From contig NZ_QLTS01000001.1 of NCBI RefSeq assembly GCF_003269275.1, positions 310,001-374,000 on the forward strand: 64,000 nucleotides of DNA, given 5' to 3'. A program made the position numbers and the translations under genes. Source of the DNA: Phascolarctobacterium faecium DSM 14760 (GTDB taxonomy: Bacteria > Bacillota > Negativicutes > Acidaminococcales > Acidaminococcaceae). The notes beneath the pieces are model-generated. The model saw nothing but the letters and a program-made list of their open reading frames with translations. It made no database searches and was not told the origin of the DNA. Shown one piece after another: positions 3,859-48,876 of this stretch; the first letter of the stretch is position 1; each line of letters begins with the position of its first letter.

Positions 3859-4986
3859 CTATTTTTCCCCGGTAATTCGGATTATTTCCGTTACCCAGCG
3901 AGCGCAGTCGTACAAATCACACTCACGCAGGCACTCTTCTGTAGTATGTACCTTGTTCATACCTGTAGCTAGAAGTACGCAGGGCAAACCATAGCCGCAG
4001 AGGAAATTGCCGTCACTGCAGCCACCTGTTTTCGTCAGTTCAAAAGGCAGCTGCAGATTATCGGCTGCCTGCTTAGCCAGCAATACCGCCGTATGGTCTT
4101 CCGCTACATGAACAGCAGGACAGCCTTCTACCGGATCAACCTCTAAAATACCGCCGCCGGCTTCAACCACTTCTCTGATACACCTGATCGTTTCATTCTT
4201 CAGCCGCTCCAGCTTATCAGGGTCCATACAGCGCATATCGATCACGAATTTAGCCTGCTCCGCAACGATGTTTGTTGCAGCACCGCCTTCGATCTGTCCT
4301 ATATTTAATGTAGTTTCTTCATCAAGACGTCCGTAAGCAGGCAGCGCCGTCAAAGCTTTCGCCGCCAGCATAATGGCATTGATACCTTTTTCAGGCTCGA
4401 TACCTGCATGAGCCGACTTACCTTTGACTGTAAAATAAATATCGAACAGCCGCGGCGCAGAGTTCGTAACGATACCGGGCGCACCACCGATATCCAGGCA
4501 ATAACCGAGATCAGCCCTGATATCCTTCGGGTCAAGATTGACCACTCCCAGACAACCGATCTCTTCGGCAATCGTAAAACACAGCTGGATATCGCCATGC
4601 GGGATATTCTGCTCCTGCACGGCCCGCACTGCTTCCAGCACAGCCGCTATACCAACTTTATCATCACCGCCTAAAGTAGTAGTTCCGTCAGAATAAAGGA
4701 CTCCGTCCCTGCGCACGACCTTCGTTCCCGTTGTCGGCGGCACTGAATCCATATGTGCTTCAAAAAACAGTCCGGCTGCACCCTCTACATTGCCCGGTAA
4801 AAATGCCCACACATTGCCTGTTGTCCCGCCGATCTTCCTGCCGGCATCGTCCACCTTTACTTCCAGTCCCATTGCCTGCAGCTTCTGTACCAGCAGATCG
4901 GCTTCGGCCTTTTCGTCCTTACTAGGACAGGGCACACTGACCAGTTCTATAAATTCATTTAAAATACGTGTTTTATTAATCATCAT
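3859..4986 (-). CDS. M20/PepT-like peptidase (tripeptidase T family)
   Basis: A 375-residue zinc metallopeptidase of the M20 family, closest to the PepT-like aminopeptidase subgroup. Metal ligands and catalytic residues are visible in order: EAHMDSVPP (His-x-Asp), LGGDDKVGIAA (bridging Asp), TIAEEIGCLG (catalytic Glu-Glu), CLDIGG (Asp) and NKVHTTEE (His). The inserted dimerisation domain runs from about VKGKSAHAG to the middle of the protein. No signal peptide, so it is a cytoplasmic enzyme that removes N-terminal residues from short peptides. The substrate is not readable from sequence. A start one codon later (second Met) is possible. Confidence 0.9.
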   Translation of the reverse strand: MMINKTRILNEFIELVSVPCPSKDEKAEADLLVQKLQAMGLEVKVDDAGRKIGGTTGNVWAFLPGNVEGAAGLFFEAHMDSVPPTTGTKVVRRDGVLYSDGTTTLGGDDKVGIAAVLEAVRAVQEQNIPHGDIQLCFTIAEEIGCLGVVNLDPKDIRADLGYCLDIGGAPGIVTNSAPRLFDIYFTVKGKSAHAGIEPEKGINAIMLAAKALTALPAYGRLDEETTLNIGQIEGGAATNIVAEQAKFVIDMRCMDPDKLERLKNETIRCIREVVEAGGGILEVDPVEGCPAVHVAEDHTAVLLAKQAADNLQLPFELTKTGGCSDGNFLCGYGLPCVLLATGMNKVHTTEECLRECDLYDCARWVTEIIRITGEK

Positions 4987-5343: not shown

Positions 5344-5436
5344 TTATTATAGCACAAGAGTACCCCCCCACAAGACATACAAGAACTTTTTATCTTCGCC
5401 TGACGCAACGTTTTTGCTCAAACGTTTTGATAATCG
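5344..5436 (-). promoter_or_regulatory. Copy 1 of a repeated promoter/operator element
   Basis: Reading the minus strand: GATTATCAAAACG, GAGCAA, a spacer, then AAGTTCTTGTATGTCTTGT, a run of G, and a -10 TATAAT (5351-5346). A 22-base core (5370-5391) is identical to 41336-41357, and the order of parts is the same in both copies. A more diverged copy lies at 21331-21397. All three are upstream of minus-strand genes, with the G-run between the putative -35 and -10. Confidence 0.6.
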
Positions 5437-14097: not shown

Positions 14098-16551
14098 TCA
14101 AAACGTCCATCTGGCGCCGATGTTCCACTGCCAGTCTTTAGTAAAATCACTGCCTGAGCTGCGTTCCACATCCAGATAAACATGACTGTTTTTACCTGCG
14201 GCAAAAGCGGCGCCAACACCATATTCAAACCAGGTATCGTTAAAGGTATCGCCAACCTTAACTCTATCCCTGCCGTCATACATCGTTACATCATAAGCGC
14301 CGCCGAACTCATGCAGCAGATTGGCCTTAGCATAAACGACGCCTTTGCTGCCGACCTCTTTGCCGATATTGAATCCGATACGTCCGACAGCGCTTTTGAT
14401 CCCGCTCTGGCTTACTTCGATACCATTACTGGTAGTATAACTGTCACCGCCCAGATAACCTAAAGTAAACTGGGCCTGCGGCTCGATATACCAGCCGTTG
14501 TGCAAGACATTTTTCCGGCCGTATTCAGCACTCAGCGATACGCCGGTATTGTTAAAATCACCGGTGATCTTATTATTTTTCGTATCGTACACCTTAAAAT
14601 CATTCTCCAGATTACTGACTTTAAACACCACATCCAAATAATGCCCTTTACTGCCGATTTCCGTATTATAGAAACTGATCGCCTTGCTGCTGTTGTCGCC
14701 GCTGCCACGATTGTAACTGCTGTCGCCGTCAACATAGCTTACCGCCGCCCCCTGATAACGTATCTTGTCGTCAGTATTTTTAGTTATGGTATCGTAACCC
14801 AGCTCGTAAGAAGTATACTTGTTTTCAAAATCAAATTTTCCGTCACGGCCTATTTTTGTTCCCCGCAGCCGGAACCAGGCCCCCTGGGCTTCTTCGCCAT
14901 TATGCCGCAGCTCACCCATACGCTGCAGCAGCTTGTCGTTTTCTGTCCGCCACGTGTGATAGTTCAGCGCATTGGCTGCAATGATCGTATCCGTACTGGT
15001 AGTAGGCTGATCAATATTCGTTACCTGCTTCAAATACCAGTCCTTAGTATAATTACCACTCGTATCGGCAGTATCCTGATGATCCAGCTCATAACGCTTC
15101 CAGTACAGCGTCCCCTCACCATCTACAGCGGCAAAACTGCCGTTATGGTTATTGACAGTCGCCAGCACCGTACCGACGCCTTCTTCCCCTACAGGCGTAT
15201 AACCATTGACCTCGTACAAATCAATATACTGCGTCCCGGTCAACGTATCGGTAACATACAGCTTGTCGCTGTTCAACGAATTCTGACTGGCATCGATATC
15301 CATTTTGATAACGCCGTTCTCACCGCTGAGATTATCTACCGTCAAAGTGCTGAAAGTATTACTGTCGTGAGTCATATCCACTATCGAATTATCGTTATGC
15401 AAATGCGTCAGGTTAGAATCACCAGTCACCTTCCAATAGGAAGCCTCCTCCAGCGAAATATTAGTTTTAGCTGTACTGGCAGTGCTTATCCAGCCCTCGA
15501 TAAACGATCCGCTATTAGCAGTAAGATCAACTATGCCGCCACTGTTATTAAGGATATTGCCGTAAATATTATATTTGCCCGCATTACCCACCACGCTGCC
15601 GTTATTATAAGTATAAATAGCATAACTCGCAGTACCGCCCTCAGTCGCACTGATAACAGCTCCATTTAATACAGCCTCGCTGCCAGTGCCTTGCGCCAAC
15701 ACACCTGCTGCCCATTGGCTTCCATCATCCGCACTGACGTTAATAACAAGATCCTTAGCTGCCTCAAACTTCCCTTTATTAAATACAAATACTCCCAACG
15801 CCACGCCATCCCTGCTGTTAGCAATGATAGAAGCATTTTCCCCCAAAGTAACCTTAGCGTCGTTAAAACCAACCTCGACTCCTCTGGTATCCTTTCCGCC
15901 TGTAACAAATAACCTCAACCCATCACCAACAGAAATAGTAGCTCCGTCATAAGAATCGATACCATAAGTCCAGCCAGTTCCCGCATTGATAACATTCAAC
16001 TCTAAATTATCGCCAACTTCAATAATACCTGAATCCATTGTCGCATTATCACCGGCATACATACCCTTCATCACATTAGGCTGATTATTGGAATCCAGAC
16101 CGCTGACATTACCGGAAACAGTGATTTTAGAATCATCACCGATTTTTACAACTCCGGAAGCATATGTCTTAATACCATAAACATCCAGATTATGTACCGT
16201 TCCTGAAGTATCAATAAAATTCATCTCGATCTGCTTCAGGTCAATCGTGCTGTTATAGCCAAAAATACCAATAGAATCGTAGCCACTGTTTGTAGAGTTG
16301 GCAAAACCATTAATATCCAGCTTGATAGCACCGCTATTATAAATAAAATCATTACCACTGGCATAAATGCCCTTCGTAACATGGCTAATGCTGCTGGAGT
16401 CGATAGACGCTATTCCCCCAAGCGCCTCCAACTCACTTACTGTCGAAAATGGCTGATCGACACCTTCAGCAGCCCACACCACATTATTTAATGACATTGC
16501 TAAAACGCTTGCCAAGACTGCTTTTTTAATTACATCTTTTTTCCTTTTCAT
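14098..16551 (-). CDS. Classical (type Va) autotransporter 1
   Basis: An 817-residue surface protein. A signal peptide (basic MKRKKDVIKKAV then hydrophobic ASVLAMSLNNVVWA) is followed by a Ser/Asn/Gly-rich beta-helix passenger (about 30-510) with pertactin-like repeats. A C-terminal beta-barrel (about the last 280 residues) ends in Trp-Thr-Phe as expected for an outer-membrane barrel. The junction has NALNYHTWRTENDKLLQRMG, which is also found in autotransporter 2. No protease triad is evident, so adhesin-like function is inferred. It has its own promoter (16632-16660). Confidence 0.88.
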   Translation of the reverse strand: MKRKKDVIKKAVLASVLAMSLNNVVWAAEGVDQPFSTVSELEALGGIASIDSSSISHVTKGIYASGNDFIYNSGAIKLDINGFANSTNSGYDSIGIFGYNSTIDLKQIEMNFIDTSGTVHNLDVYGIKTYASGVVKIGDDSKITVSGNVSGLDSNNQPNVMKGMYAGDNATMDSGIIEVGDNLELNVINAGTGWTYGIDSYDGATISVGDGLRLFVTGGKDTRGVEVGFNDAKVTLGENASIIANSRDGVALGVFVFNKGKFEAAKDLVINVSADDGSQWAAGVLAQGTGSEAVLNGAVISATEGGTASYAIYTYNNGSVVGNAGKYNIYGNILNNSGGIVDLTANSGSFIEGWISTASTAKTNISLEEASYWKVTGDSNLTHLHNDNSIVDMTHDSNTFSTLTVDNLSGENGVIKMDIDASQNSLNSDKLYVTDTLTGTQYIDLYEVNGYTPVGEEGVGTVLATVNNHNGSFAAVDGEGTLYWKRYELDHQDTADTSGNYTKDWYLKQVTNIDQPTTSTDTIIAANALNYHTWRTENDKLLQRMGELRHNGEEAQGAWFRLRGTKIGRDGKFDFENKYTSYELGYDTITKNTDDKIRYQGAAVSYVDGDSSYNRGSGDNSSKAISFYNTEIGSKGHYLDVVFKVSNLENDFKVYDTKNNKITGDFNNTGVSLSAEYGRKNVLHNGWYIEPQAQFTLGYLGGDSYTTSNGIEVSQSGIKSAVGRIGFNIGKEVGSKGVVYAKANLLHEFGGAYDVTMYDGRDRVKVGDTFNDTWFEYGVGAAFAAGKNSHVYLDVERSSGSDFTKDWQWNIGARWTF

Positions 16552-16930: not shown

Positions 16931-19900
16931 TCAAAATTCAAACCTTACTCCTGCATTTACCTGCCATTTCTTTTGGATATCGGCGCCAAAGCTCCGTTCG
17001 ATATCGCCGTATAAATGACTGCTGTTGCCCAGCTTGATATTACCACCCAAACCAAGCTCAAACCAGGTATCGCCATAATCCTGCGACTCACTCAATGTTT
17101 CACCATTGCCCGCCAGCATCATGACATCACGGTTACCACCAAACTCATGCAGCATATTCACTTTAAGATATACATCGTTGCCTGACGCATCTTTTTTGCC
17201 TGCTACTACGCCCAAACGTCCAATGCAGCTGTTTACACCGCCCATATAAACATTATTGCCACGATCAGTCGTGTAGCTGCTGCTGCCCAACCGTCCTACA
17301 ATCAGCTGTGCCTGCGGTTCGATAAAAGTCCCCTGTGCTTTATTCAGTTCTATGGTTTTTCCATATTCCACACTCAGACTATACGCATGGCTTTTTGCCT
17401 TGGCCTTATCCGGATAATCGCCATAGGACCTGATGTCCGTATCAAACTGGCCGAAGCGAGTCACTACATCTGTATAGCTGCTGTTATCGCCATGCCAGGT
17501 TCCATAAATACTGCCTGCAAACAGCTTGTCTTTACCGCTTCCGGTCCCATATCTGGCATTAGCATTACCACTATCAATAGCAAAGCCATAGGTACTTTTG
17601 GCATTATCCGCTTTATCATATCCCAGTTGATACATATTATAACCGCTGTCAAAACCGCTGCCGGCAAACTTTCCGCCGCTGTATCGTGCCCAAATGCCAT
17701 CACCATCTACTGTGTTGTCTCTAAAACGCAAATCTCCCAGACGCTTACGCAGACTGTCGTTGGTATTACGCCAGAGAGCGTAACTGTTATCCATTGTAGA
17801 GAGCAATACTCCCGTATCATTATTTATTACTTTTTCTATTTTGGTTAAATACCACTCCTTTTTACTGCCTGTACTACCATCTGCCTTAGTAACATCTGCA
17901 CCATTCTCAATAGTCGGCGTAACATCCCATATACCTCCAGCATTAAGATGCTTTCCTGTAAAGGTGGCTTTTTCACTGGTATCAGTTATCAAAAGTAGAC
18001 TTTTATTACCTGTTACTTCAATACCACTAAGCAGACTTGAATCCTTGACCTGTACATAAGTAATCCCTGCCGTAGCACCTGTAATAGCAATCTTATCGCC
18101 ATTGGTTTCACTGGCAAGGTCGGTATCCATAACAAACTTTCCTCCAGTACCGCTGTAATCGGTAACATTTAAAGTATCTGCTCCTTGTGTCAAATCAATA
18201 ACAGCATTATTATTGTTTATCAACGCATTTACAACACTGTCGCCTGCCATATTCCATGTCGATGCATTATCAAAGCTAAGATTAGTTATTCTATCTGCGC
18301 CATTTGCACCAATACTAGCACCAGTAAGAAAAGAATCCGCCGTCTTCAAACTGATATCGATCAAAGCTCCTTGAGTACCATATTTGGTAAAATGTTTAAC
18401 ATCACCCAGAAGCTGCACTTTTTTTCCTGTCACCGGATCTATTTTAATTGATGCATCGTAACTACCACTATAGCCTACAGCACCTACTGCTGTACCATTA
18501 TTTGTCTTAACAATAACTTCACCCGTATACTCGCTGTGATCCCCAACAGAATTTGCACGTAAACCAATGCCTTTTTCACTTTTAACATCAACCCTTACAT
18601 CACCATCTGCTTTAATACTGCCGCTGATACCTACAGTACCAATCAAACCTGCATCGTTTACTGCGGCCCCCTGTACTGCTACATTAATTTGTGAACCAGC
18701 TTTCGCACTAGATTCTGTGCCATTTACATTAGTCAAAAGTAATCCAAACACACCTTCAGAACTTCCTGTACTGCCAGACTGTAGACCGTTTGCTTCAACA
18801 TCAACATTTAAAACAGCATTAGTTTCCAAATTGAAGCCTTTGTCATCTCTGTCATAAATACCGTGTGTTTGCCAGTAGGTGTCTTTAGTATTTTTCAAAA
18901 CAATATTTGTCACAGAATTATCTGCCAACTTAACGCCGCTGAATAAGCCTTCAGCAAAATCACTGCTGCCTTCAACATTGATATTGTTTTGCAGTCCACC
19001 AATTGTTATATGTGTGGCCGAATTCGTATTCCCTATTACAGCAGCCATTCTTTGATAAGCAGTTGTATCGTGAATATTGATATTCAAATTTCCGGACACC
19101 GTAATGGCATCATTGGATGCGATACCAGCAACCATCCCGCTTTGTCCGCTTATATCCATATTCACATCATGGGCAACAGTGACCTGGCCTGCATTAATGC
19201 CACAAGCACTACCTAAGCTGTTTATCTTCATCTTTACGCTACCGTCAATGGTGGATGTCCCAAGGATACCAGTAACGTTTTTCCCTCCGCTCAACTCTGC
19301 TTTCACATCGCCTGCAACCTGCGCTTCACCTTTAACACCTATAACATCAGCATTGGCATTGCCGATGATACGCATATTCAAATCGCCATTGATCATTGCG
19401 TTGTTGCCACCAACATTGATACCTGTAGTTTTATCGTTGCCATTAATATTATCCAGAATAATAGTTGTGTTATCAGACTTAAAATCCGCACTGGTATTAG
19501 AAATTCCAAGCATACCTGCACTGGCATGACCACTGCCGTTTTCTTTTTTAGTAAGCTTTATAGCAACATTTTTCATTCTCATTTGATTAGATGTCTGATT
19601 TTCTATCCCTACAATATATCCCTTGCCACTGCCGGTAATGTTTATATCATCAGCAGTAAATGTACTCGCGGCACTAGTTCCGTTTTTGTTGGTAATTCCT
19701 ATCAGGTTACCATCATTATTGGCCTCAATTGTAATATTCCCCGCCTTAAAATCTACCGCATTATTTCCGTTAATCCCATGGCTTCCATTGATAATACCGT
19801 AAAGCTCACTGCCATAGCCTGTCAAATCCATTTTTATATTACCGGCAGTAAATTTTGAGGCGTTGTTGGCCCCTGTACTTTGATTGACAATACCATTGAC

Positions 19901-20233
19901 CATAAAATTACCTGAACCGCCAACAACTGTAATTTCCATATTTTTACCTGTATAAACACTGCCGCCATCATTAAAAAAACCTGCCGCCTCATTGCTATCG
20001 CTGCGCACTTCCAGTACAATGTCGTTAGCTGTCAATATACCATTGTTAGTATTTATGATACCCATTGGCTTATCAGTCGTACTGTGCACACTATAACTTT
20101 TACTTGCCTCAGATATATCAAATGTAGTGCCACTATTATTTAAGCCCCATTCCAAAGCCATTGCACTGCTACTACCAACACCCGACAACATTAAACTCAA
20201 AATTATAGCCTTCTCCAAGTTTTTCATTTTCAT
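16931..20233 (-). CDS. Classical (type Va) autotransporter 2
   Basis: A 1100-residue surface protein, paralogous to the neighbour at 14098-16551 in its barrel. A signal peptide (KMKNLEKAIILSLMLSGVG, ending near SSAMA) is followed by a long repetitive beta-helix passenger rich in Asn, Gly and Thr (recurring D/NxxxxIxG and TGI/VxN patterns). A linker with LWRNTNDSLRKRLGDLRF leads to a beta-barrel ending Phe-Glu-Phe. The ATG at 20233 has AAAGG 6 bases upstream; one two codons earlier is too close. It is the last gene of an operon-like string: Rrf2 remnant, Xre, zinc-finger miniprotein, autotransporter, with only about 10 bases before it. Confidence 0.88.
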   Translation of the reverse strand: MKMKNLEKAIILSLMLSGVGSSSAMALEWGLNNSGTTFDISEASKSYSVHSTTDKPMGIINTNNGILTANDIVLEVRSDSNEAAGFFNDGGSVYTGKNMEITVVGGSGNFMVNGIVNQSTGANNASKFTAGNIKMDLTGYGSELYGIINGSHGINGNNAVDFKAGNITIEANNDGNLIGITNKNGTSAASTFTADDINITGSGKGYIVGIENQTSNQMRMKNVAIKLTKKENGSGHASAGMLGISNTSADFKSDNTTIILDNINGNDKTTGINVGGNNAMINGDLNMRIIGNANADVIGVKGEAQVAGDVKAELSGGKNVTGILGTSTIDGSVKMKINSLGSACGINAGQVTVAHDVNMDISGQSGMVAGIASNDAITVSGNLNINIHDTTAYQRMAAVIGNTNSATHITIGGLQNNINVEGSSDFAEGLFSGVKLADNSVTNIVLKNTKDTYWQTHGIYDRDDKGFNLETNAVLNVDVEANGLQSGSTGSSEGVFGLLLTNVNGTESSAKAGSQINVAVQGAAVNDAGLIGTVGISGSIKADGDVRVDVKSEKGIGLRANSVGDHSEYTGEVIVKTNNGTAVGAVGYSGSYDASIKIDPVTGKKVQLLGDVKHFTKYGTQGALIDISLKTADSFLTGASIGANGADRITNLSFDNASTWNMAGDSVVNALINNNNAVIDLTQGADTLNVTDYSGTGGKFVMDTDLASETNGDKIAITGATAGITYVQVKDSSLLSGIEVTGNKSLLLITDTSEKATFTGKHLNAGGIWDVTPTIENGADVTKADGSTGSKKEWYLTKIEKVINNDTGVLLSTMDNSYALWRNTNDSLRKRLGDLRFRDNTVDGDGIWARYSGGKFAGSGFDSGYNMYQLGYDKADNAKSTYGFAIDSGNANARYGTGSGKDKLFAGSIYGTWHGDNSSYTDVVTRFGQFDTDIRSYGDYPDKAKAKSHAYSLSVEYGKTIELNKAQGTFIEPQAQLIVGRLGSSSYTTDRGNNVYMGGVNSCIGRLGVVAGKKDASGNDVYLKVNMLHEFGGNRDVMMLAGNGETLSESQDYGDTWFELGLGGNIKLGNSSHLYGDIERSFGADIQKKWQVNAGVRFEF

Positions 20234-20243
20234 AAACATCCTT

Positions 20244-20450
20244 TCATCTTTTCTGTTTTTGATCAGGTCTTTTTTTATAACAAGAAAAACTGCAAAAATA
20301 CTGCCGTTTTCTTCCTACCAGGGCTGTATAAACGTGGTAAGTCTTATTACAGCCAAACTCACGTCCGCAAATTGGGCACCGCACCGTTAAACCATTTAAA
20401 CCAGGTTGTATACTTTTATTGGTAACCTCTTCCCATATCTCGATATGCAA
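20244..20450 (-). CDS. Cys-rich zinc-finger-like miniprotein, copy 1
   Basis: A 68-residue member of a family found three times in this window. Five Cys lie at 25, 28, 34, 53 and 57: CPICGREFGC, then NKTYHVYTALVGRKRQ, then CSFSC. The C-x2-C...C-x3-C pattern resembles treble-clef/FCS-type zinc fingers; the basic RKRQ stretch could bind nucleic acid. Start is probably TTG at 20450, with AAGGAG 9 bases upstream; no ATG fits. It lies between an Xre regulator (27 bases away) and autotransporter 2 (about 10 bases away). Function unknown; a regulatory role is inferred. Confidence 0.75.
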   Translation of the reverse strand: MHIEIWEEVTNKSIQPGLNGLTVRCPICGREFGCNKTYHVYTALVGRKRQYFCSFSCYKKRPDQKQKR

Positions 20451-20476
20451 CTAAAACATCTCCTTGCCGCTATTTG

Positions 20477-20776
20477 TTACTCGTCGCAGCGCACCAGCCT
20501 AAAGCGCCTAAGCTTATTTTTACTATTCAAAAGCTCTTTATAGCCCTCCGGGTCTACTATCTCGTCTAACGTGCACACAAAACGCTGCTTTATTTTTAGC
20601 AGCATCTTTAAGCTAAGCATCACTCGGCCACTTTCTACATTGCTTAAATGCGTCTGCGAAATACCCAAAAATTTAGCAAATTCTGTTTGCGTTATGCCAT
20701 TGCGGGTACGCCTTACTTGGATCTCGCAGCCAACTTTTTTATAATCCAACTCTTCCATCTTCCCATCCATTTCCAC
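20477..20776 (-). CDS. Xre-type HTH regulator 1
   Basis: A 99-residue protein with an HTH_3 domain at about 15-70: VRRTRNGITQTEFAKFLG, then ISQTHLSNVESGRV as the recognition helix, and MLLKIKQRF. The C-terminal tail is short and basic (NKLRRFRLVR). The longest start is GTG at 20776; ATG codons at residues 3 and 7 are alternatives and no Shine-Dalgarno decides. The recognition helix is nearly the same as in the Xre genes at 24456 and 40702. It probably controls the autotransporter operon. Confidence 0.82.
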   Translation of the reverse strand: MEMDGKMEELDYKKVGCEIQVRRTRNGITQTEFAKFLGISQTHLSNVESGRVMLSLKMLLKIKQRFVCTLDEIVDPEGYKELLNSKNKLRRFRLVRCDE

Positions 20777-20779
20777 CGC

Positions 20780-21191
20780 TTATCCGTGTAGCAGGCTTGC
20801 TACCGTCATTGCTTGCAGCTTCTTTTCAATCAAGCTCTGTAGCTCACAGTAAAAGGCCCGTACCGGACAATTTTCAGTAGCAAAACGGCTGCAATACCTG
20901 CCGACCTCCAAACAACGGTTAAGCTTTGTAGTCGCCTCCAGCACATTGATGATTTCGTAAAGGCTGATCTCCGTTGGCTTTTTAGCCAGCAAAAAGCCGG
21001 CCCTGTGCCCCTACTATTCTTTTGATGATACCGGCCACTACCAGCTTGCTGGTGATTTTTAAAACATAGCTTGGCGGTATACCCATTGCCATAGCTATTT
21101 CATTCGATGTTGCCAGTTCATCTTTGATAGCAAGATACAAAACAGTCCTGATGGCATAATCAGTCGTAACATTTAATTGCATCATCTGCAT
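20780..21191 (-). pseudogene. Rrf2 family regulator broken by a +1 frameshift
   Basis: Two frames together spell one Rrf2 protein. The first (from ATG 21191, with GAGGAG 7 bases upstream) gives LNVTTDYAIRTVLYLAIKDE and the winged helix to GIIKRIVGAQG. The second (to 20780) continues GFLLAKKPTEISLYEIINVL and holds three Cys (RCLEVGRYC...NCPV) placed as in Fe-S-binding IscR/NsrR types. One extra C in GGGCCGGC near 20992-21000 causes the shift. Upstream is copy 3 of the repeated promoter element. Real inactivation, programmed frameshift or an assembly error are all possible. Confidence 0.8.
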
Positions 21192-21330
21192 CGTCCATCT
21201 CCTCACTAATGGAAACCATACCTTCTCAGGTTTCTTTTGTTACAAACAAACAAGCCCTGATAGTTGTCTATAAAATCCAACCAACGGTTTTGCTATTCTA
21301 TATTTTTTCAAAGCATTTTTAATATTTTAC

Positions 21331-21397
21331 ATTATATTATCATATTCGTCCCCCCCGCAAGACATTCTTGCTCGAATTATCAAAAAACTTTGTTCGA
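21331..21397 (-). promoter_or_regulatory. Copy 3 (diverged) of the repeated promoter/operator element, upstream of the Rrf2-Xre-autotransporter operon
   Basis: Minus strand: TTTTTTGATAAT, GAGCAA, GAATGTCTTGC, a run of seven G, then overlapping -10 boxes (TATAAT at 21336-21331). It includes a perfect inverted repeat GCAAGA-CAT-TCTTGC (21357-21371) and a second, TCGAA...TTCGA (21372-21397), both good operator candidates. Confidence 0.55.
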
Positions 21398-21402
21398 TGG
21401 TC

Positions 21403-21431
21403 TTGCAACTGGTAACTTTTAGGTGTATAAT
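21403..21431 (+). promoter_or_regulatory. Plus-strand promoter divergent from the Rrf2 operon
   Basis: -35 TTGCAA, 17-base spacer, -10 TATAAT; only about 70 bases from the minus-strand -10 of the repeated element, so both could be controlled by one regulator. Confidence 0.6.
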
Positions 21432-21436
21432 AAAAA

Positions 21437-21491
21437 ATGTAAAAGATAAGGCGACACTCACCTTTAGGTTAAGTGTCGCCTTATCTTTTTG
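21437..21491 (+). ncRNA. Candidate short hairpin RNA or leader terminator
   Basis: Directly after the promoter comes an 18-bp perfect stem, AAAAGATAAGGCGACACT with its complement, and a 13-base loop CACCTTTAGGTTA, ending in a T-run. Transcription from 21438 would stop near 21490, giving an RNA of about 50 nt, or the hairpin may attenuate transcription of the small frame at 21642. The stem is symmetrical, so it would also stop minus-strand transcripts. Confidence 0.45.
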
Positions 21492-21641
21492 TTTTCCCAC
21501 AACTGCATAGGCTATGACTGTCGCGTCATAGCTCCAAACAATCACATGTTTACTTATTTTGGCATTGAGGTACTGTTAATTACAGGCTTTTTATGCTGCA
21601 ATTAACAGTATTGTTACCATTTCAACCAAATAGCTTCCTAC

Positions 21642-21803
21642 ATGGACGTTATTTTTGTGTACCTTGTTCTTTTACAATGGCACTGCTTAGCTTGTTCAGG
21701 CAGGGCCGCAGCTGACAGGGAAAACAGCAAGCGGCGGTTGAATGAAATCATCAGGCATTTGGAAAACAGATATACAGTAACAGAACCTGTAACGGACTTA
21801 TAA
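21642..21803 (+). CDS. Possible small protein, 53 aa
   Basis: An ATG-initiated frame with a hydrophobic start (MDVIFVYLVLLQWHC), then a charged helical part (RENSKRRLNEIIRHLENRY). It lacks a clear ribosome site. The codons look coding-like, and it ends a few bases before the bidirectional terminator at 21808. It could be a real short membrane peptide, the end of a decayed gene, or chance. I do not recognise it. Confidence 0.3.
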   Translation: MDVIFVYLVLLQWHCLACSGRAAADRENSKRRLNEIIRHLENRYTVTEPVTDL

Positions 21804-21807
21804 GCAT

Positions 21808-21845
21808 AAAAAATACCGGATAGAATATCTATCCGGTATTTTTTG
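21808..21845. terminator. Bidirectional terminator after the trimeric autotransporter gene
   Basis: AATACCGGATAGA-ATA-TCTATCCGGTATT with A and T runs on either side. Confidence 0.9.
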
Positions 21846-21863
21846 TGTTTTAATCGGTTCTTT

Positions 21864-24416
21864 TTATTGCAATTTCGCTTTTAAGGTTTCGATTTCACGG
21901 CTTTGCGCTTCTAATTTCATCAATAACAGCTGGATTTTTTCTTCCTGAGCTTTTAAGGAAGTATCGACTTCACGGCGTGTGTAAATAATATCACGTTTTG
22001 GTACTTCGCCTTTTTTAGTGCGGTCTAAAGCAAAGTTTACACCAATATTACCCATTTTTTTACCGCCCTGGGTTATACCCATCCCCAGCGAAAACATTAC
22101 TTCCTGATTTGGTGCATAAAATCCGCCGACGGCCAAAGCGTTTTTGCCATCATATGACCCCATTGCCATCGCCAGTTCACCTTTGTTACCATCCTGGAAG
22201 CGTGGGTGCAGACCTGCCATTGCCGCTGATAATGCGCCAACGCTGTCTATTTCTTCTCCAAAACGGCTGATATCGTTACTGAGTCCCTGGATATCCTGTT
22301 TTACCTGATATAACTGGCTGCCGTTTACAGCGTCTGTTGAGGTCGCATCGACACGTCCGGGAGCAACATTACTGATCGTTTTGTTATTGGCATTGATACC
22401 GTTGCTGTCGATGTAGGTTTCGTTGCCGACCTTATATTCTTTGGCTTCGATGCTGTTTAAGCTTATATCATCTTTTAAAGATACTTTATAATCGTTGTTG
22501 CCCAGTTTATCTATCTGGATATTTTCACCGGCGCTTAAATCTACACTGCCAACAGTTCCAAGAGTATCCATGACTGATTTTAACTGTTCTTCAGTTGCAG
22601 CACGACCAGTTGTTGCAAAATCAGCGCTGTTCAAAGTCGTATTGGTAAGACCTGTTATTTCACCGATTTTATTGCCGTTATCAGTGCTCCCTTCTATAGT
22701 GACATTACCAACTTGTACTTTGTCTTCTAAACTTACTTTGTATTTTACAGGATCACCGTCCTGAGCAACATTTTCTACCTTCACACCGCTGTTGCTGTCG
22801 CCTTCAACAGTAACTTTATTGGCTGCGATCTGGTCATTGATATCACCAAATTTGACCTCCAGATTATCAACCCTGTTATTCAGGTTAGTGATAGAGGTAT
22901 TATTACTGATGTCAAGAGTTTCTCCAAGCTTAGCGTTAGGCGCAATAGTTATTTTAGCTCCTTCTGCAGTAGTTTCAACGCTGACATCGATTTTATCTTT
23001 GGCTCCGATAAATTTGATATCTGTTTTGTTTTCGCCGCCAAGTCTGATATCTGTTTTAGTACCAATTTCGTTACTTACAGTAAATCCGCCCTGCAGCTTT
23101 GTGATATTTTCGTTGTTAGTTGTCTGGTCTGTATTAAGTTCATCTACCAGATTTTTTACACTTTTAAGCTGCGCTACATTGACTGCGTCAGTATCTTCTG
23201 TACCTGCCGCCAAATTGGTGATCTGGCGTGTATTAGCGGCATGGAACTTACCGTTCTCATCTGTATATGCTGCCGAACCTACGCTTATTGCGCCATCACT
23301 GCTGCGCCATGCTGAAAGGGCATTATTTTTTTCTTCTAAAGCATTTAAAAAATCCTTATTTTGGCTTAACCATGCATTTTTTTGTTTAGTAGCTTCTAAC
23401 ATACGAGTTGACAGATCAGCTTTTTTGGCCAAGGCAGTCTCATAAGCTTTTTGTTTTTCCGCATCCGTACTGCCTTTTGTATTGCGCAGGATATCGTCGT
23501 TCTTTTGCGCTTCATCATAAAGGCTGTAATAGTTTTTCATAACCTCTGTATATTCGTTATTTTTTTCAGACCATTTATTATTGAATTGATTTACAACATC
23601 AGCTTTACCAATAGATGCGGCAAGCTCCATCTCTGTTGCAGGCTGACCAGCAGCAGTCGCTACAAAACCAATTTTCCCAGCAGCCGTATCGGCAACTGCA
23701 TCAGGGCCAAGCGCAACACCGCCGTTTGCCAAAACCGATGCACTATCGCCCAGCGCGCTGCCACGCCATGCTACATAAGTCCTGTCACCCAGGGCAACAC
23801 CATAAGCTTCTGCAGAAGCGCTGTCCCCCACCGCAACGCCGCCTCTGGCAAACGCATTATTGCCAATAGCTGTGCCGCTGTAGGAAGAAAATAATTCCCC
23901 AGGCAGATTTTTGTAAAAATCACCGGCAGTTGCGTTATAGCCTATGGCAACGCCGTTAGTACTTTGCGTATTATTACCAACAGAAGTGCCTTTGTTCGTT
24001 GCATATGCATTAACACCGACAGCAGCCGAGTTACTAGTGGCATAACTGGCAGCGCCCAAACTCGTAGAGCTGATAACAGACGTTGCATTATAACCGACCG
24101 CAGTACTGTATCCATGCGACGCAAATGCACCCATACCCGCTGCCAAAGCGCCATAATTATTTTTATCTAAGGCGTTAGGCCCTGCGCCTTCTCCATTCTC
24201 ATTATTATTTTGAGACTTTTGGCTGGCCTTCTTATAATCAATAATTCCTTTTTGGGACAAATCTTCAAGAGTAGGTTCTGTACCTACGCCAAAATAATAT
24301 CTACTGCCCTGATTAGTTACCCCTGTAGCATCTGCTGCAAAACTATTACTGACATATACAGACTGCATCAAAGCTAAGGCAATGCAAAGGCTCAATTTTT
24401 TATTTATTTTTTTCAT
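21864..24416 (-). CDS. YadA-like trimeric autotransporter adhesin
   Basis: An 850-residue type Vc adhesin. The signal peptide (KKLSLCIALALMQSVYVSNSFA) is followed by a head of YadA repeats (about 75-245) such as NSAAVGVNAYA, NGVAIGYNA and GGVALGPDA. A coiled-coil segment (about 255-370), HIM/neck motifs (RQITNLAAGTEDTDAVNVAQ; ISNVAPGRVDATSTDAVNGS) and the YadA anchor (LSAAMAGLHPRF to GVNFAL) follow. Unlike the usual architecture, about 50 residues follow the last barrel strand and form a heptad-like coiled coil (EKIQLLLMKLEAQSREIETL). Directly upstream lie an Xre gene and a zinc-finger miniprotein gene. Confidence 0.93.
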   Translation of the reverse strand: MKKINKKLSLCIALALMQSVYVSNSFAADATGVTNQGSRYYFGVGTEPTLEDLSQKGIIDYKKASQKSQNNNENGEGAGPNALDKNNYGALAAGMGAFASHGYSTAVGYNATSVISSTSLGAASYATSNSAAVGVNAYATNKGTSVGNNTQSTNGVAIGYNATAGDFYKNLPGELFSSYSGTAIGNNAFARGGVAVGDSASAEAYGVALGDRTYVAWRGSALGDSASVLANGGVALGPDAVADTAAGKIGFVATAAGQPATEMELAASIGKADVVNQFNNKWSEKNNEYTEVMKNYYSLYDEAQKNDDILRNTKGSTDAEKQKAYETALAKKADLSTRMLEATKQKNAWLSQNKDFLNALEEKNNALSAWRSSDGAISVGSAAYTDENGKFHAANTRQITNLAAGTEDTDAVNVAQLKSVKNLVDELNTDQTTNNENITKLQGGFTVSNEIGTKTDIRLGGENKTDIKFIGAKDKIDVSVETTAEGAKITIAPNAKLGETLDISNNTSITNLNNRVDNLEVKFGDINDQIAANKVTVEGDSNSGVKVENVAQDGDPVKYKVSLEDKVQVGNVTIEGSTDNGNKIGEITGLTNTTLNSADFATTGRAATEEQLKSVMDTLGTVGSVDLSAGENIQIDKLGNNDYKVSLKDDISLNSIEAKEYKVGNETYIDSNGINANNKTISNVAPGRVDATSTDAVNGSQLYQVKQDIQGLSNDISRFGEEIDSVGALSAAMAGLHPRFQDGNKGELAMAMGSYDGKNALAVGGFYAPNQEVMFSLGMGITQGGKKMGNIGVNFALDRTKKGEVPKRDIIYTRREVDTSLKAQEEKIQLLLMKLEAQSREIETLKAKLQ

Positions 24417-24455
24417 GAAAAATCAGCTTCCTTCCAACAATGGAAGTATTTATCT

Positions 24456-24794
24456 TCAGCCTTTCTGTAAAACTTTCATTATTTCTATGGCTTTAGACAA
24501 ATCTTCCAGTCTAAAGTTATTTTCTTCGACTATAGTTTTTATTTTTTGGCATTCGTTTTTTTCTGCTTCGTTTTCAGAGAGTGTTTTTTCTTCAAAAAAA
24601 TATTCTATCGGACATTCAAACAATTCTTTTATTTTTATTAAGTGCAACAAAGTCACACCAACTCTGCCATTTTCGATATTGCTTAAATGTGTTTGCGATA
24701 TACACAGTTTTTTAGCCAGCACCTTTTGTGATATTTTATTTTCAATGCGCAGAAGCTTTATTCTGTGTCCAATTTTTTGAAGCTCTTTTTCCAT
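24456..24794 (-). CDS. Xre-type HTH regulator 2
   Basis: A 112-residue protein with an N-terminal HTH_3 domain (IKLLRIENKISQKVLAKKL, CISQTHLSNIENGRVGV) and a Glu/Lys-rich C-terminal helix region (about 65-112) that could mediate dimerisation. The ATG at 24794 is chosen because CGGAGG lies 9 bases upstream. It is 39 bases before the trimeric autotransporter gene and 50 bases after the zinc-finger miniprotein, same strand. Likely regulator of that adhesin. Confidence 0.85.
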   Translation of the reverse strand: MEKELQKIGHRIKLLRIENKISQKVLAKKLCISQTHLSNIENGRVGVTLLHLIKIKELFECPIEYFFEEKTLSENEAEKNECQKIKTIVEENNFRLEDLSKAIEIMKVLQKG

Positions 24795-24844
24795 TATCAA
24801 GCACCTCCGAAAACAAATAGTAACAAACATTTTTGCCGGCAAAA

Positions 24845-25045
24845 TTATTTTCTTGGGTTTGGCCGTTTATTAAAACAAGAATAACTGCAATAATATTGCC
24901 TTTTTCTGGCAAGCAAAGCCGTATAAACATGATATGTTTTGTTACAGCTGAATTCACGGCCACAAATAGGGCATTTCATCATTAATGATTCAATGCCTGA
25001 TCTACGTGATGTCATTTCACTGTCATGGCAGAATTTTGAATTCAT
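24845..25045 (-). CDS. Cys-rich zinc-finger-like miniprotein, copy 2
   Basis: A 66-residue paralogue of 20244-20450, with Cys at exactly the same positions (25, 28, 34, 53, 57) and an extra Cys at 6. Its core reads CPICGREFSC, NKTYHVYTALLARKRQ and CSYSC. AGAAGG precedes the ATG at 25045. It is the first gene of a three-gene string ending in the trimeric autotransporter. A long AT-rich upstream region with a palindrome (25106-25119) may hold its operator. Confidence 0.75.
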   Translation of the reverse strand: MNSKFCHDSEMTSRRSGIESLMMKCPICGREFSCNKTYHVYTALLARKRQYYCSYSCFNKRPNPRK

Positions 25046-28914: not shown

Positions 28915-29168
28915 AAAAAATAAAGCCCCGCTCCCAAAAAGGGACGAGACTATAAACCCGTGGTACCACCCTCATGACAGACTTAAGCTGCCTGCCACTC
29001 GAAACACCATAACGTGTGTTACCCGTCCGGGCTTACTGTTTTCAGCCCAGAAGCTCTGAAGTGATCTTCCCCTGCCATCTTTCCGGTCGGGCTCGCACTG
29101 TCCCCGACTCGCTTGACTGTGCCCGGCAGGCTACTGTCTTCGTCATCGCTGCTGCTTTTATTAAAACA
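28915..29168 (-). promoter_or_regulatory. T-box riboswitch leader of ileS
   Basis: The minus strand carries the T-box core AGGGTGGTACCACG (about 28974-28961), followed by a terminator hairpin (CTCGTCCC...GGGAGCGGGGC and T-run) ending about 14 bases before the ileS start. The Stem I region contains GGAAGATCACTTCAGAG, with ATC as the likely isoleucine specifier. Uncharged tRNA-Ile would stabilise the antiterminator and switch ileS on. Confidence 0.95.
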
Positions 29169-40701: not shown

Positions 40702-41208
40702 CTATTCCAGCTTAATACCGTCGCCTTCAACTGATACCGACGCCTGTTCGATCGTATTGCGGCGGCGTTTATCAAGATTACGGTATTCTTCCTGCTGCAT
40801 TTTTTCAGCCTTAATATTCGTCAGAGTCCCCGTATATTTACTGTCGGAGGACGGGGCGTAATTATCTGACGAAGGCTCCGGTTCTGGGCTTTTTTCCTTA
40901 ATGACAAGCTTCCCGGTGACATTCAGCGCATAACCGTCCTGTGCAGAGAAATATTCCCTGACCTCCATCACTGTTTTCGTCAGTTCCGTAAATTCCAGCT
41001 GCAGCAAATCATCTAATGTACACTCCAGCGCATTAGCGGCACGTAGTAAAACACGGAAATTAACTGCGACTCTGCAACACTCAATATTGCTCAGATGCGT
41101 TTGACTGATAACCAAAGCCCGGGCCAGTTCACCCTGGCTGATACCGCGGCATGTCCTGAGCAGCTTGATATTAGCGCCGATTATTTTCAAACAGCGTTCA
41201 TCGTACAT
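40702..41208 (-). CDS. Xre-type HTH regulator 3
   Basis: A 168-residue protein with an N-terminal HTH_3 (KLLRTCRGISQGELARAL, VISQTHLSNIECCRVAV) and LLRAANALECTLDDLLQL, followed by a charged, Ser/Pro/Lys-rich tail (about 90-168). The recognition helix ISQTHLSNIE is shared with the two Xre genes of the autotransporter modules, so these three are recent paralogues. A copy of the repeated promoter element (41310-41403) lies upstream, so it may regulate or be regulated together with those loci. Confidence 0.85.
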   Translation of the reverse strand: MYDERCLKIIGANIKLLRTCRGISQGELARALVISQTHLSNIECCRVAVNFRVLLRAANALECTLDDLLQLEFTELTKTVMEVREYFSAQDGYALNVTGKLVIKEKSPEPEPSSDNYAPSSDSKYTGTLTNIKAEKMQQEEYRNLDKRRRNTIEQASVSVEGDGIKLE

Positions 41209-41555
41209 ATTGCCCGCCTCACATCTTAATGTAATCAGATCATATTTTTTAAATTTATCAGCACTTTATCTGCTATTACTTGCAGAACATTTACCAAACA
41301 ATATTTTCTATAATTTTAGCACTGTTGTAACCCCCACAAGACATACAAGAACTTTTTTACGCCGCCGTCCGGTTCCGTTATTGCTCTTACGTTTTGATAA
41401 TCGCCAAAATCACCTCCAGCAAACAGTGCTGCTGCCCGTCCGCACAACACTTTCACACTACTGTCCTGGCAGATATGGTATAATAAAAGCCATTAAACAA
41501 CTCTGATATTTTTTATTCGGCAGCTTCGCCTGTCCTGACACAGAAAGGTACAGCT
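41209..41555. other. Divergent intergenic region with copy 2 of the repeated element
   Basis: Contains copy 2 (41310-41403), the likely promoter of Xre 3 (-10 TAAAAT at 41318-41313), and a weak plus-strand promoter region before the radical SAM gene. No further gene is seen. Confidence 0.55.
41310..41403 (-). promoter_or_regulatory. Copy 2 of the repeated promoter/operator element
   Basis: Same order as copy 1: GATTATCAAAACG, GAGCAA, then AAAAAGTTCTTGTATGTCTT with the G-run and a -10 box. Identical over 22 bases (41336-41357) to 5370-5391; flanks are diverged, which argues for function rather than recent duplication. Confidence 0.6.
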
Positions 41556-48678: not shown

Positions 48679-48876
48679 CTACTTAGCTCCCGGTCTATTC
48701 TTAAAGCAGGAGTACCTGCAATAATAGTAGCGTTTTCTTTTTATCAAAGCCGTGTAAACATGATGAGCTTTATTACAGACGAATTCTTTGCCGCCAACCG
48801 GGCAAATCATCACCAGAGAACCGACGATGCTTTTAGCTTTTGTTTCAATTGTGTTCATTGTTTCTTTTTCTTTCAT
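48679..48876 (-). CDS. Cys-rich zinc-finger-like miniprotein, copy 3
   Basis: A 65-residue paralogue of 20244-20450 and 24845-25045 in the same register. The second Cys (28) is Gly (CPVGGKEFVC), leaving Cys 25, 34, 53 and 57, which is still enough for one tetrahedral zinc site. The core AHHVYTALIKRKRYYYC is otherwise conserved. GGGGTGAT precedes the ATG. Unlike the other two, it has no Xre or autotransporter neighbour; it stands alone between the importer operon and addAB. Upstream is a long AT-rich region, as with copy 2. Confidence 0.75.
   Translation of the reverse strand: MKEKETMNTIETKAKSIVGSLVMICPVGGKEFVCNKAHHVYTALIKRKRYYYCRYSCFKNRPGAK

Follow-up and report, generated by a model that had tools for sequence, protein, structure and literature searches.

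Xre-type regulator genes, a Cys-rich miniprotein and a shared promoter box at autotransporter operons of Phascolarctobacterium faecium

Two adhesin operons with the same small genes

In Phascolarctobacterium faecium DSM 14760, two autotransporter (AT) genes of different types are each accompanied by a gene for an Xre-type helix-turn-helix (HTH) regulator and a gene for a small Cys-rich protein, here called the miniprotein. We asked whether this arrangement is more than coincidence and whether the two small genes form a dedicated control pair for surface adhesins, as an earlier note on the sequence had proposed. Both loci lie in a stretch of 64,000 nucleotides (the window; contig C1, NZ_QLTS01000001.1, positions 310,001 to 374,000). 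The observation itself was confirmed and is not chance, because the miniproteins are under purifying selection and Xre genes adjoin AT genes about 100-fold more often than expected. The Xre gene is the recurrent element, and the miniprotein is an addition found in one lineage.

Module A, on the minus strand, comprises in this order a split Rrf2-type regulator gene, an Xre gene, miniprotein A and a type Va AT. The Xre gene (20477-20776) encodes 99 residues with a short basic C-terminus (PF01381, E 1.6e-11), and miniprotein A (20244-20450; 68 residues, TTG start) carries a CxxC-x24-CxxxC zinc finger pattern. The AT (16931-20239; 1102 residues) matched PF03797 with E 1.2e-32 and 114 bits against a cut-off of 26, which places it in type Va. 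The Rrf2-type gene that leads the operon (20780-21206) is interrupted by a frameshift, with PF02082 found in both pieces (20982-21206 and 20780-20992), and is probably a pseudogene. An intact relative with three clustered Cys precedes an AT elsewhere (locus L103, 3106-3612). Upstream of module A, we read a hairpin at 21441-21489 as a terminator, and downstream lies a second type Va AT (14098-16551, minus strand; PF03797, E 2.7e-32) with no Xre or miniprotein gene of its own.

Module B, also on the minus strand, runs miniprotein B (24845-25045; 66 residues), Xre gene (24456-24794), AT (21864-24416; 850 residues). The Xre protein, whose ATG start lies within a listed TTG open reading frame (24456-24842), has a C-terminal helix and matched PF01381 with E 1.7e-14; the two Xre proteins of the window scored 44.5 and 54 bits against a cut-off of 23 for this HTH_3 family. 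The AT is a type Vc trimeric adhesin, with YadA_stalk (PF05662, 76.5 bits) and YadA_anchor (PF03895, 33.1 bits) domains.

The earlier note was thus right about the two AT types and about the same-strand Xre and miniprotein genes ahead of each. Its spacing of about 30-50 bases held in module B (50 bases from miniprotein to Xre, 39 from Xre to AT) and was too long for module A, where 26 bases separate Xre and miniprotein and 4 separate the miniprotein stop from the AT start. The order of the small genes is swapped between the modules, so the two did not arise by one simple duplication. The miniproteins A and B are 53% identical overall and 61% identical over 57 aligned codons. Both contain Cys25, 28, 34, 53 and 57, although B is a six-Cys rather than a five-Cys protein through its additional Cys6. 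Both Xre proteins contain ISQTHLSN, though their overall identity is just 38%.

Xre genes and miniproteins across the genome and family

We then followed each small gene beyond the two modules. The genome encodes 24 ATs, 19 classical and 5 trimeric, and 24 Xre-like genes. Eight of these Xre-like genes lie on the same strand as an AT and within 300 bp of it, compared with 0.08 expected. The search profile came from the Xre proteins of modules A-D; independence of this choice can thus be claimed for five of the eight adjacent loci, not for A, B and C. Further Xre genes belong to an AT operon without being close to the AT (L102, L111) or stand behind a large surface protein (L108). Similar Xre genes adjoin ATs in g10 and g16, two further genera of the Acidaminococcaceae. 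All 13 analysable high-scoring Xre loci of g16 adjoin an AT or AT-like gene, with the Xre gene before (10) or behind (3) an AT or a secreted gene with the same signal-peptide family. Genus g10 shows the order promoter box (described below), Xre, AT at two loci in two genomes. The high-scoring Xre genes of g17, g2 and g13 do not adjoin ATs. A C-terminal helix is retained in module B and in most of the remaining AT-linked Xre proteins; in modules A, C and D it is missing, and the Xre protein ends with a short basic tail. The window holds one more Xre paralogue of the AT-linked type (40702-41208, minus strand; HTH_3), which has no AT after it. At three loci, genes before ATs were named by eye as resembling AT-modifying glycosyltransferases (L109, 5127-6494; L108, 7592-8899; L111, 4598-5950), which suggests that these adhesins may be glycosylated.

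The miniprotein is distributed differently. The genome of 2.32 Mb contains six intact copies, A to F, of which E and F are orphans. Miniprotein C, on contig C4, belongs to a third module ordered Xre, miniprotein, AT; its reading frame (L010, 4907-5257) has no stop at the usual end and reads out of frame into the AT gene start. Miniprotein D, on contig C3, is separated from its Xre gene by two genes that we take to be a YibE/F pair (L011, 7973-9479), with a trimeric AT farther on. Copy E (48679-48876, minus strand) has lost a zinc ligand, Cys28 being replaced by Gly, and adjoins a sugar ABC transporter operon; copy F lies on contig C13. Weak matches containing stops (on C10, and at C3:165829) were discarded, except for a decayed remnant directly behind an AT on C10 (L013, 5266-5400). 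In about 400 Negativicutes genomes, the GTDB species genomes, phages and plasmids, close relatives were found nowhere beyond this genome and two metagenome-assembled genomes of the same family (G006 and G020), which carry orphans. Miniprotein genes are therefore enriched beside Xre and AT genes within this genome, and are too rare outside it for the enrichment count across Negativicutes that the note had called for.

The proposal of a dedicated control pair stood only in part. A recurring regulator gene tied to surface adhesins was borne out, by at least 8 AT operons here and by g10 and g16. The pairing is not dedicated, since most AT-linked Xre genes, including all those in g10 and g16 and the remaining AT-linked loci of this genome, have no miniprotein, and some miniproteins are orphans.

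The small genes might instead be mere passengers. Mobile regulators would then collect at AT loci as hot spots, and the miniprotein would be what remains of a phage zinc finger, unlinked to adhesin control. The decayed copy behind the AT on C10, the broken Rrf2 gene of module A and distant miniprotein relatives in uncultured phage contigs would fit such a history. However, a same-strand, near-overlapping gene order is kept across three genera with different ATs, and no integrase or long flanking repeats were seen at the window modules. Long purifying selection argues in the same direction: between miniprotein copies, the proportion of nonsynonymous differences (pN) was 0.14-0.37, while that of synonymous differences (pS) ranged from 0.5 to saturation. 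Such complete or near-complete saturation at synonymous sites, with a low pN, marks the copies as old and as kept by purifying selection. We therefore consider passengers unlikely.

To place the miniprotein in a family, we searched Pfam, PHROGs and NCBIfam, where it had no assignment above the cut-off; the nearest families were zf-FCS/MYM and C2H2 fingers. The zf-FCS model matched miniprotein A with E 5.6e-4 and 20.1 bits, below the cut-off of 22.4, and miniprotein B with 8.1 bits. A PDB sequence search returned just partial matches of the CPxCG type. The Cys pattern C-x2-C ... C-x3-C is present, and AlphaFold2 gave a model of miniprotein B of fair quality (mean pLDDT 70) with two hairpins and a short helix, at the start of which the last Cys pair is placed. 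In a Foldseek search with the model, the ZMYM5 TRASH domain was listed first and ribosomal L24-type proteins, which we presume to be eL24, came near the top, with no significant match (E about 1). As modelled, the miniprotein fits a treble-clef zinc finger with C25, C28, C53 and C57 as ligands.

C25, C28, C53 and C57, but not C34, are retained by short proteins encoded in two uncultured phage contigs. A phage-borne relative of the miniprotein has 60 residues (CPVCGKEF..HVYK..FVCTYKC; phage contig L286, 4956-5138). Because the four treble-clef Cys persist in these relatives while Cys34 does not, the zinc is most likely structural, and the metal or redox sensing that had been suggested for the miniprotein found no support.

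A small gene and an Xre gene in one operon are also the usual layout of a toxin-antitoxin pair, which might stand before the ATs by chance and stabilise the locus, and the Xre protein does show a faint likeness to the models of HipB, HigA and MqsA, with scores well under every cut-off. Against this, the miniprotein occurs without Xre (E and F here; G006 and G020), is missing from most Xre-AT operons and is modelled as a zinc finger instead of a toxin fold. It matched no toxin family in Pfam, NCBIfam or PHROG (PADLOC was not searched). We give a toxin-antitoxin pair very little credence.

A promoter box shared by surface genes

The sequence upstream of module A recurs ahead of other ATs. What these sites have in common is GTCTTGYGGGGGGG followed, after a short spacer, by TGNTATAAT, a span of about 31 nt (GTCTTGYGGGGGGG-N-TGNTATAAT). 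Pattern searches located it as GTCTTGCGGGGGGGACGAATATGATAATATAAT at the start of the module A operon (21331-21363, minus strand), as the variant GTCTTGTGGGGGTTACAACAGTGCTAAAAT (41313-41342, minus strand) upstream of the Xre paralogue that has no AT, and as GTCTTGTGGGGGGGTACTCTTGTGCTATAAT (5346-5376, minus strand) ahead of a peptidase-like gene (3859-4986). The genome contains 19 exact sites, compared with 0 for a reversed-pattern control, and by our own count, which admits slightly relaxed forms, a box lies within the operon of 16 of the 24 ATs. The box is present in 59 of 300 Negativicutes genomes and absent from all 241 genomes examined from other classes of the phylum. We found no relevant paper on the box string in the open-access literature searched.

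First genes behind boxes included 11 of 55 with an AT beta-domain and 6 Xre genes, together with YadA, OmpM-like SLH porins, sugar transferases and MBOAT enzymes. Forty foreign sites precede ATs, trimeric ATs, OmpM-like SLH porins, a TonB-type receptor, capsule operons, MBOAT enzymes, chemoreceptors and secreted proteins, along with a minority of unclear genes; some of these gene names were assigned by eye. Two-partner secretion genes were also among those preceded by the box. With genes of this kind behind it (ATs, trimeric adhesins, two-partner secretion, OmpM and capsule), the box looks like a class-specific surface promoter. Box-driven MBOAT acyltransferase operons were seen in several Negativicutes (L203, L207, L211, L176), and it is possible that they form a surface acylation branch of the same regulon.

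Upstream of the box we noted a second element. In module A, GCAAGAC (21400-21406, minus strand), the inverted partner of GTCTTGC, lies 36 bp upstream of the box. An exact inverted GCAAGAC was found 30-37 bp upstream of 22 of 37 GTCTTGC boxes (a split counted by hand from the result table) and of 0 of 24 GTCTTGT boxes, compared with 0.3% in shuffles. Paralogous promoters within one genome are not independent; the partner also occurs at 12 foreign sites. The distance varies freely between 30 and 37 bp, which is odd for a rigid dimer site. The two arms could pair in RNA, and an RNA leader upstream of module A was rejected, since the pair lies upstream of the -10 and has no Rfam match; a DNA site is likelier. 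An inverton was also rejected, as the stretch between the arms is just 30-37 bp long and contains no promoter.

Whether the box involves a regulator at all was weighed against the idea that it is a mere strong sigma-A promoter variant typical of Negativicutes. It overlaps the -35 and carries an extended -10, and a few housekeeping-like genes bear it too. However, the G-tract and GTCTTG are conserved beyond what sigma-A needs, sites are few per genome and mostly at surface genes, and the inverted partner accompanies one form of the box and not the other. A promoter variant without a dedicated regulator is therefore an improbable explanation. The G-tract itself raised the idea of a phase-variation switch, in which slippage within runs of 5-10 G in the -35/-10 spacer would alter promoter spacing. 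Yet the total GTCTTG-to-TATAAT span remains close to 31 nt however many G it contains, and nearly all runs in this genome are exactly 7 G, which makes such a switch quite unlikely.

Proposed control of adhesin display and known systems

Taken together, these results point to adhesin operons with built-in Xre feedback, a shared surface promoter and an optional zinc-finger miniprotein as accessory, a reading that we hold to be probable. A sigma-A-type promoter with the GTCTTGYGGGGGGG box between -35 and -10 would be bound by a class-wide regulator and would drive many surface genes. In many AT operons, a gene for a small Xre protein precedes or follows the adhesin gene. The protein most likely binds the promoter of its own adhesin or those of sister adhesins and adjusts expression, as MrpJ does in fimbrial operons and Bartonella Trp at badA. 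In some operons, the presumably co-transcribed miniprotein would add a treble-clef zinc finger that most likely aids the Xre protein or binds nucleic acid itself.

Several observations weigh against this scheme. Module B has no promoter box, several ATs have neither box nor Xre, and orphan miniproteins occur without an Xre partner, which shows that the miniprotein can act without this partner or is decaying. Nor is an AT-linked Xre shown for the box-bearing Negativicutes of other families, and for this reason Xre is probably not the general box-binding factor.

The surface promoter specific to Negativicutes is the broader lead and the more novel one. More tentatively, and with slightly less than even confidence, we propose that one undescribed regulator runs a Negativicutes-wide outer-surface regulon (ATs, trimeric adhesins, two-partner secretion, OmpM, capsule and O-antigen) through GTCTTGYGGGGGGG. 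In some Acidaminococcaceae, each adhesin operon would add a private Xre, in some cases with a miniprotein, that selects the adhesin displayed. Adhesin control in diderm Firmicutes is an open question, for which the class-specific box and the operon-encoded Xre genes offer concrete DNA sites and genes to test. Such control could explain the choice of the displayed AT in a bacterium with some 24 of them.

We finally compared these operons with known systems. The miniprotein resembles the zinc fingers of the TRASH clan (zf-FCS/MYM and ribosomal eL24) in its C-x2-C-xn-C-x3-C pattern and, as modelled, in its order of hairpin, hairpin and helix, and differs from them in being a stand-alone protein of 60-80 residues, with family scores below cut-off and a Foldseek E of about 1. 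Antitoxins of the MqsA type combine a CxxC zinc-binding domain with an Xre HTH in one protein. The corresponding model, TIGR03830, gave a weak match; here, in contrast, there are two separate genes in either order, the Cys spacing is another and there is no MqsR toxin.

For the Xre proteins, one likeness is to small multicopy Xre proteins of Bartonella (108-152 residues) in the Brt/Trp system, of which Trp1 and Trp3 bind upstream of the trimeric AT gene badA (PMC5387305, PMC8070961). In Bartonella, the trp genes follow Brt RNAs and are not linked to badA, whereas here the Xre gene lies within the AT operon. An Rfam search of the window and of L010-L013 returned T-box and tRNA matches only, the former being an ordinary leader before the isoleucyl-tRNA synthetase gene (28937-29155); this search included no model for Brt RNAs, which are described as specific to their genus. 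MrpJ is likewise a small HTH regulator encoded in an adhesin operon, in this case a fimbrial operon of Proteus mirabilis, and controls other adhesins, including an AT (PMC11599158). Unlike MrpJ, which accompanies chaperone-usher fimbriae in an unrelated phylum and has no zinc-finger partner, the Xre genes here are not inside a chaperone-usher fimbrial operon and have ATs as neighbours; the likeness of the proteins is that of the HTH fold. MrpJ and Trp serve as precedents for the control of adhesins by HTH or Xre proteins. Both differ from the system described here, MrpJ sitting in fimbrial operons and the trp genes standing apart from badA, behind Brt RNAs.

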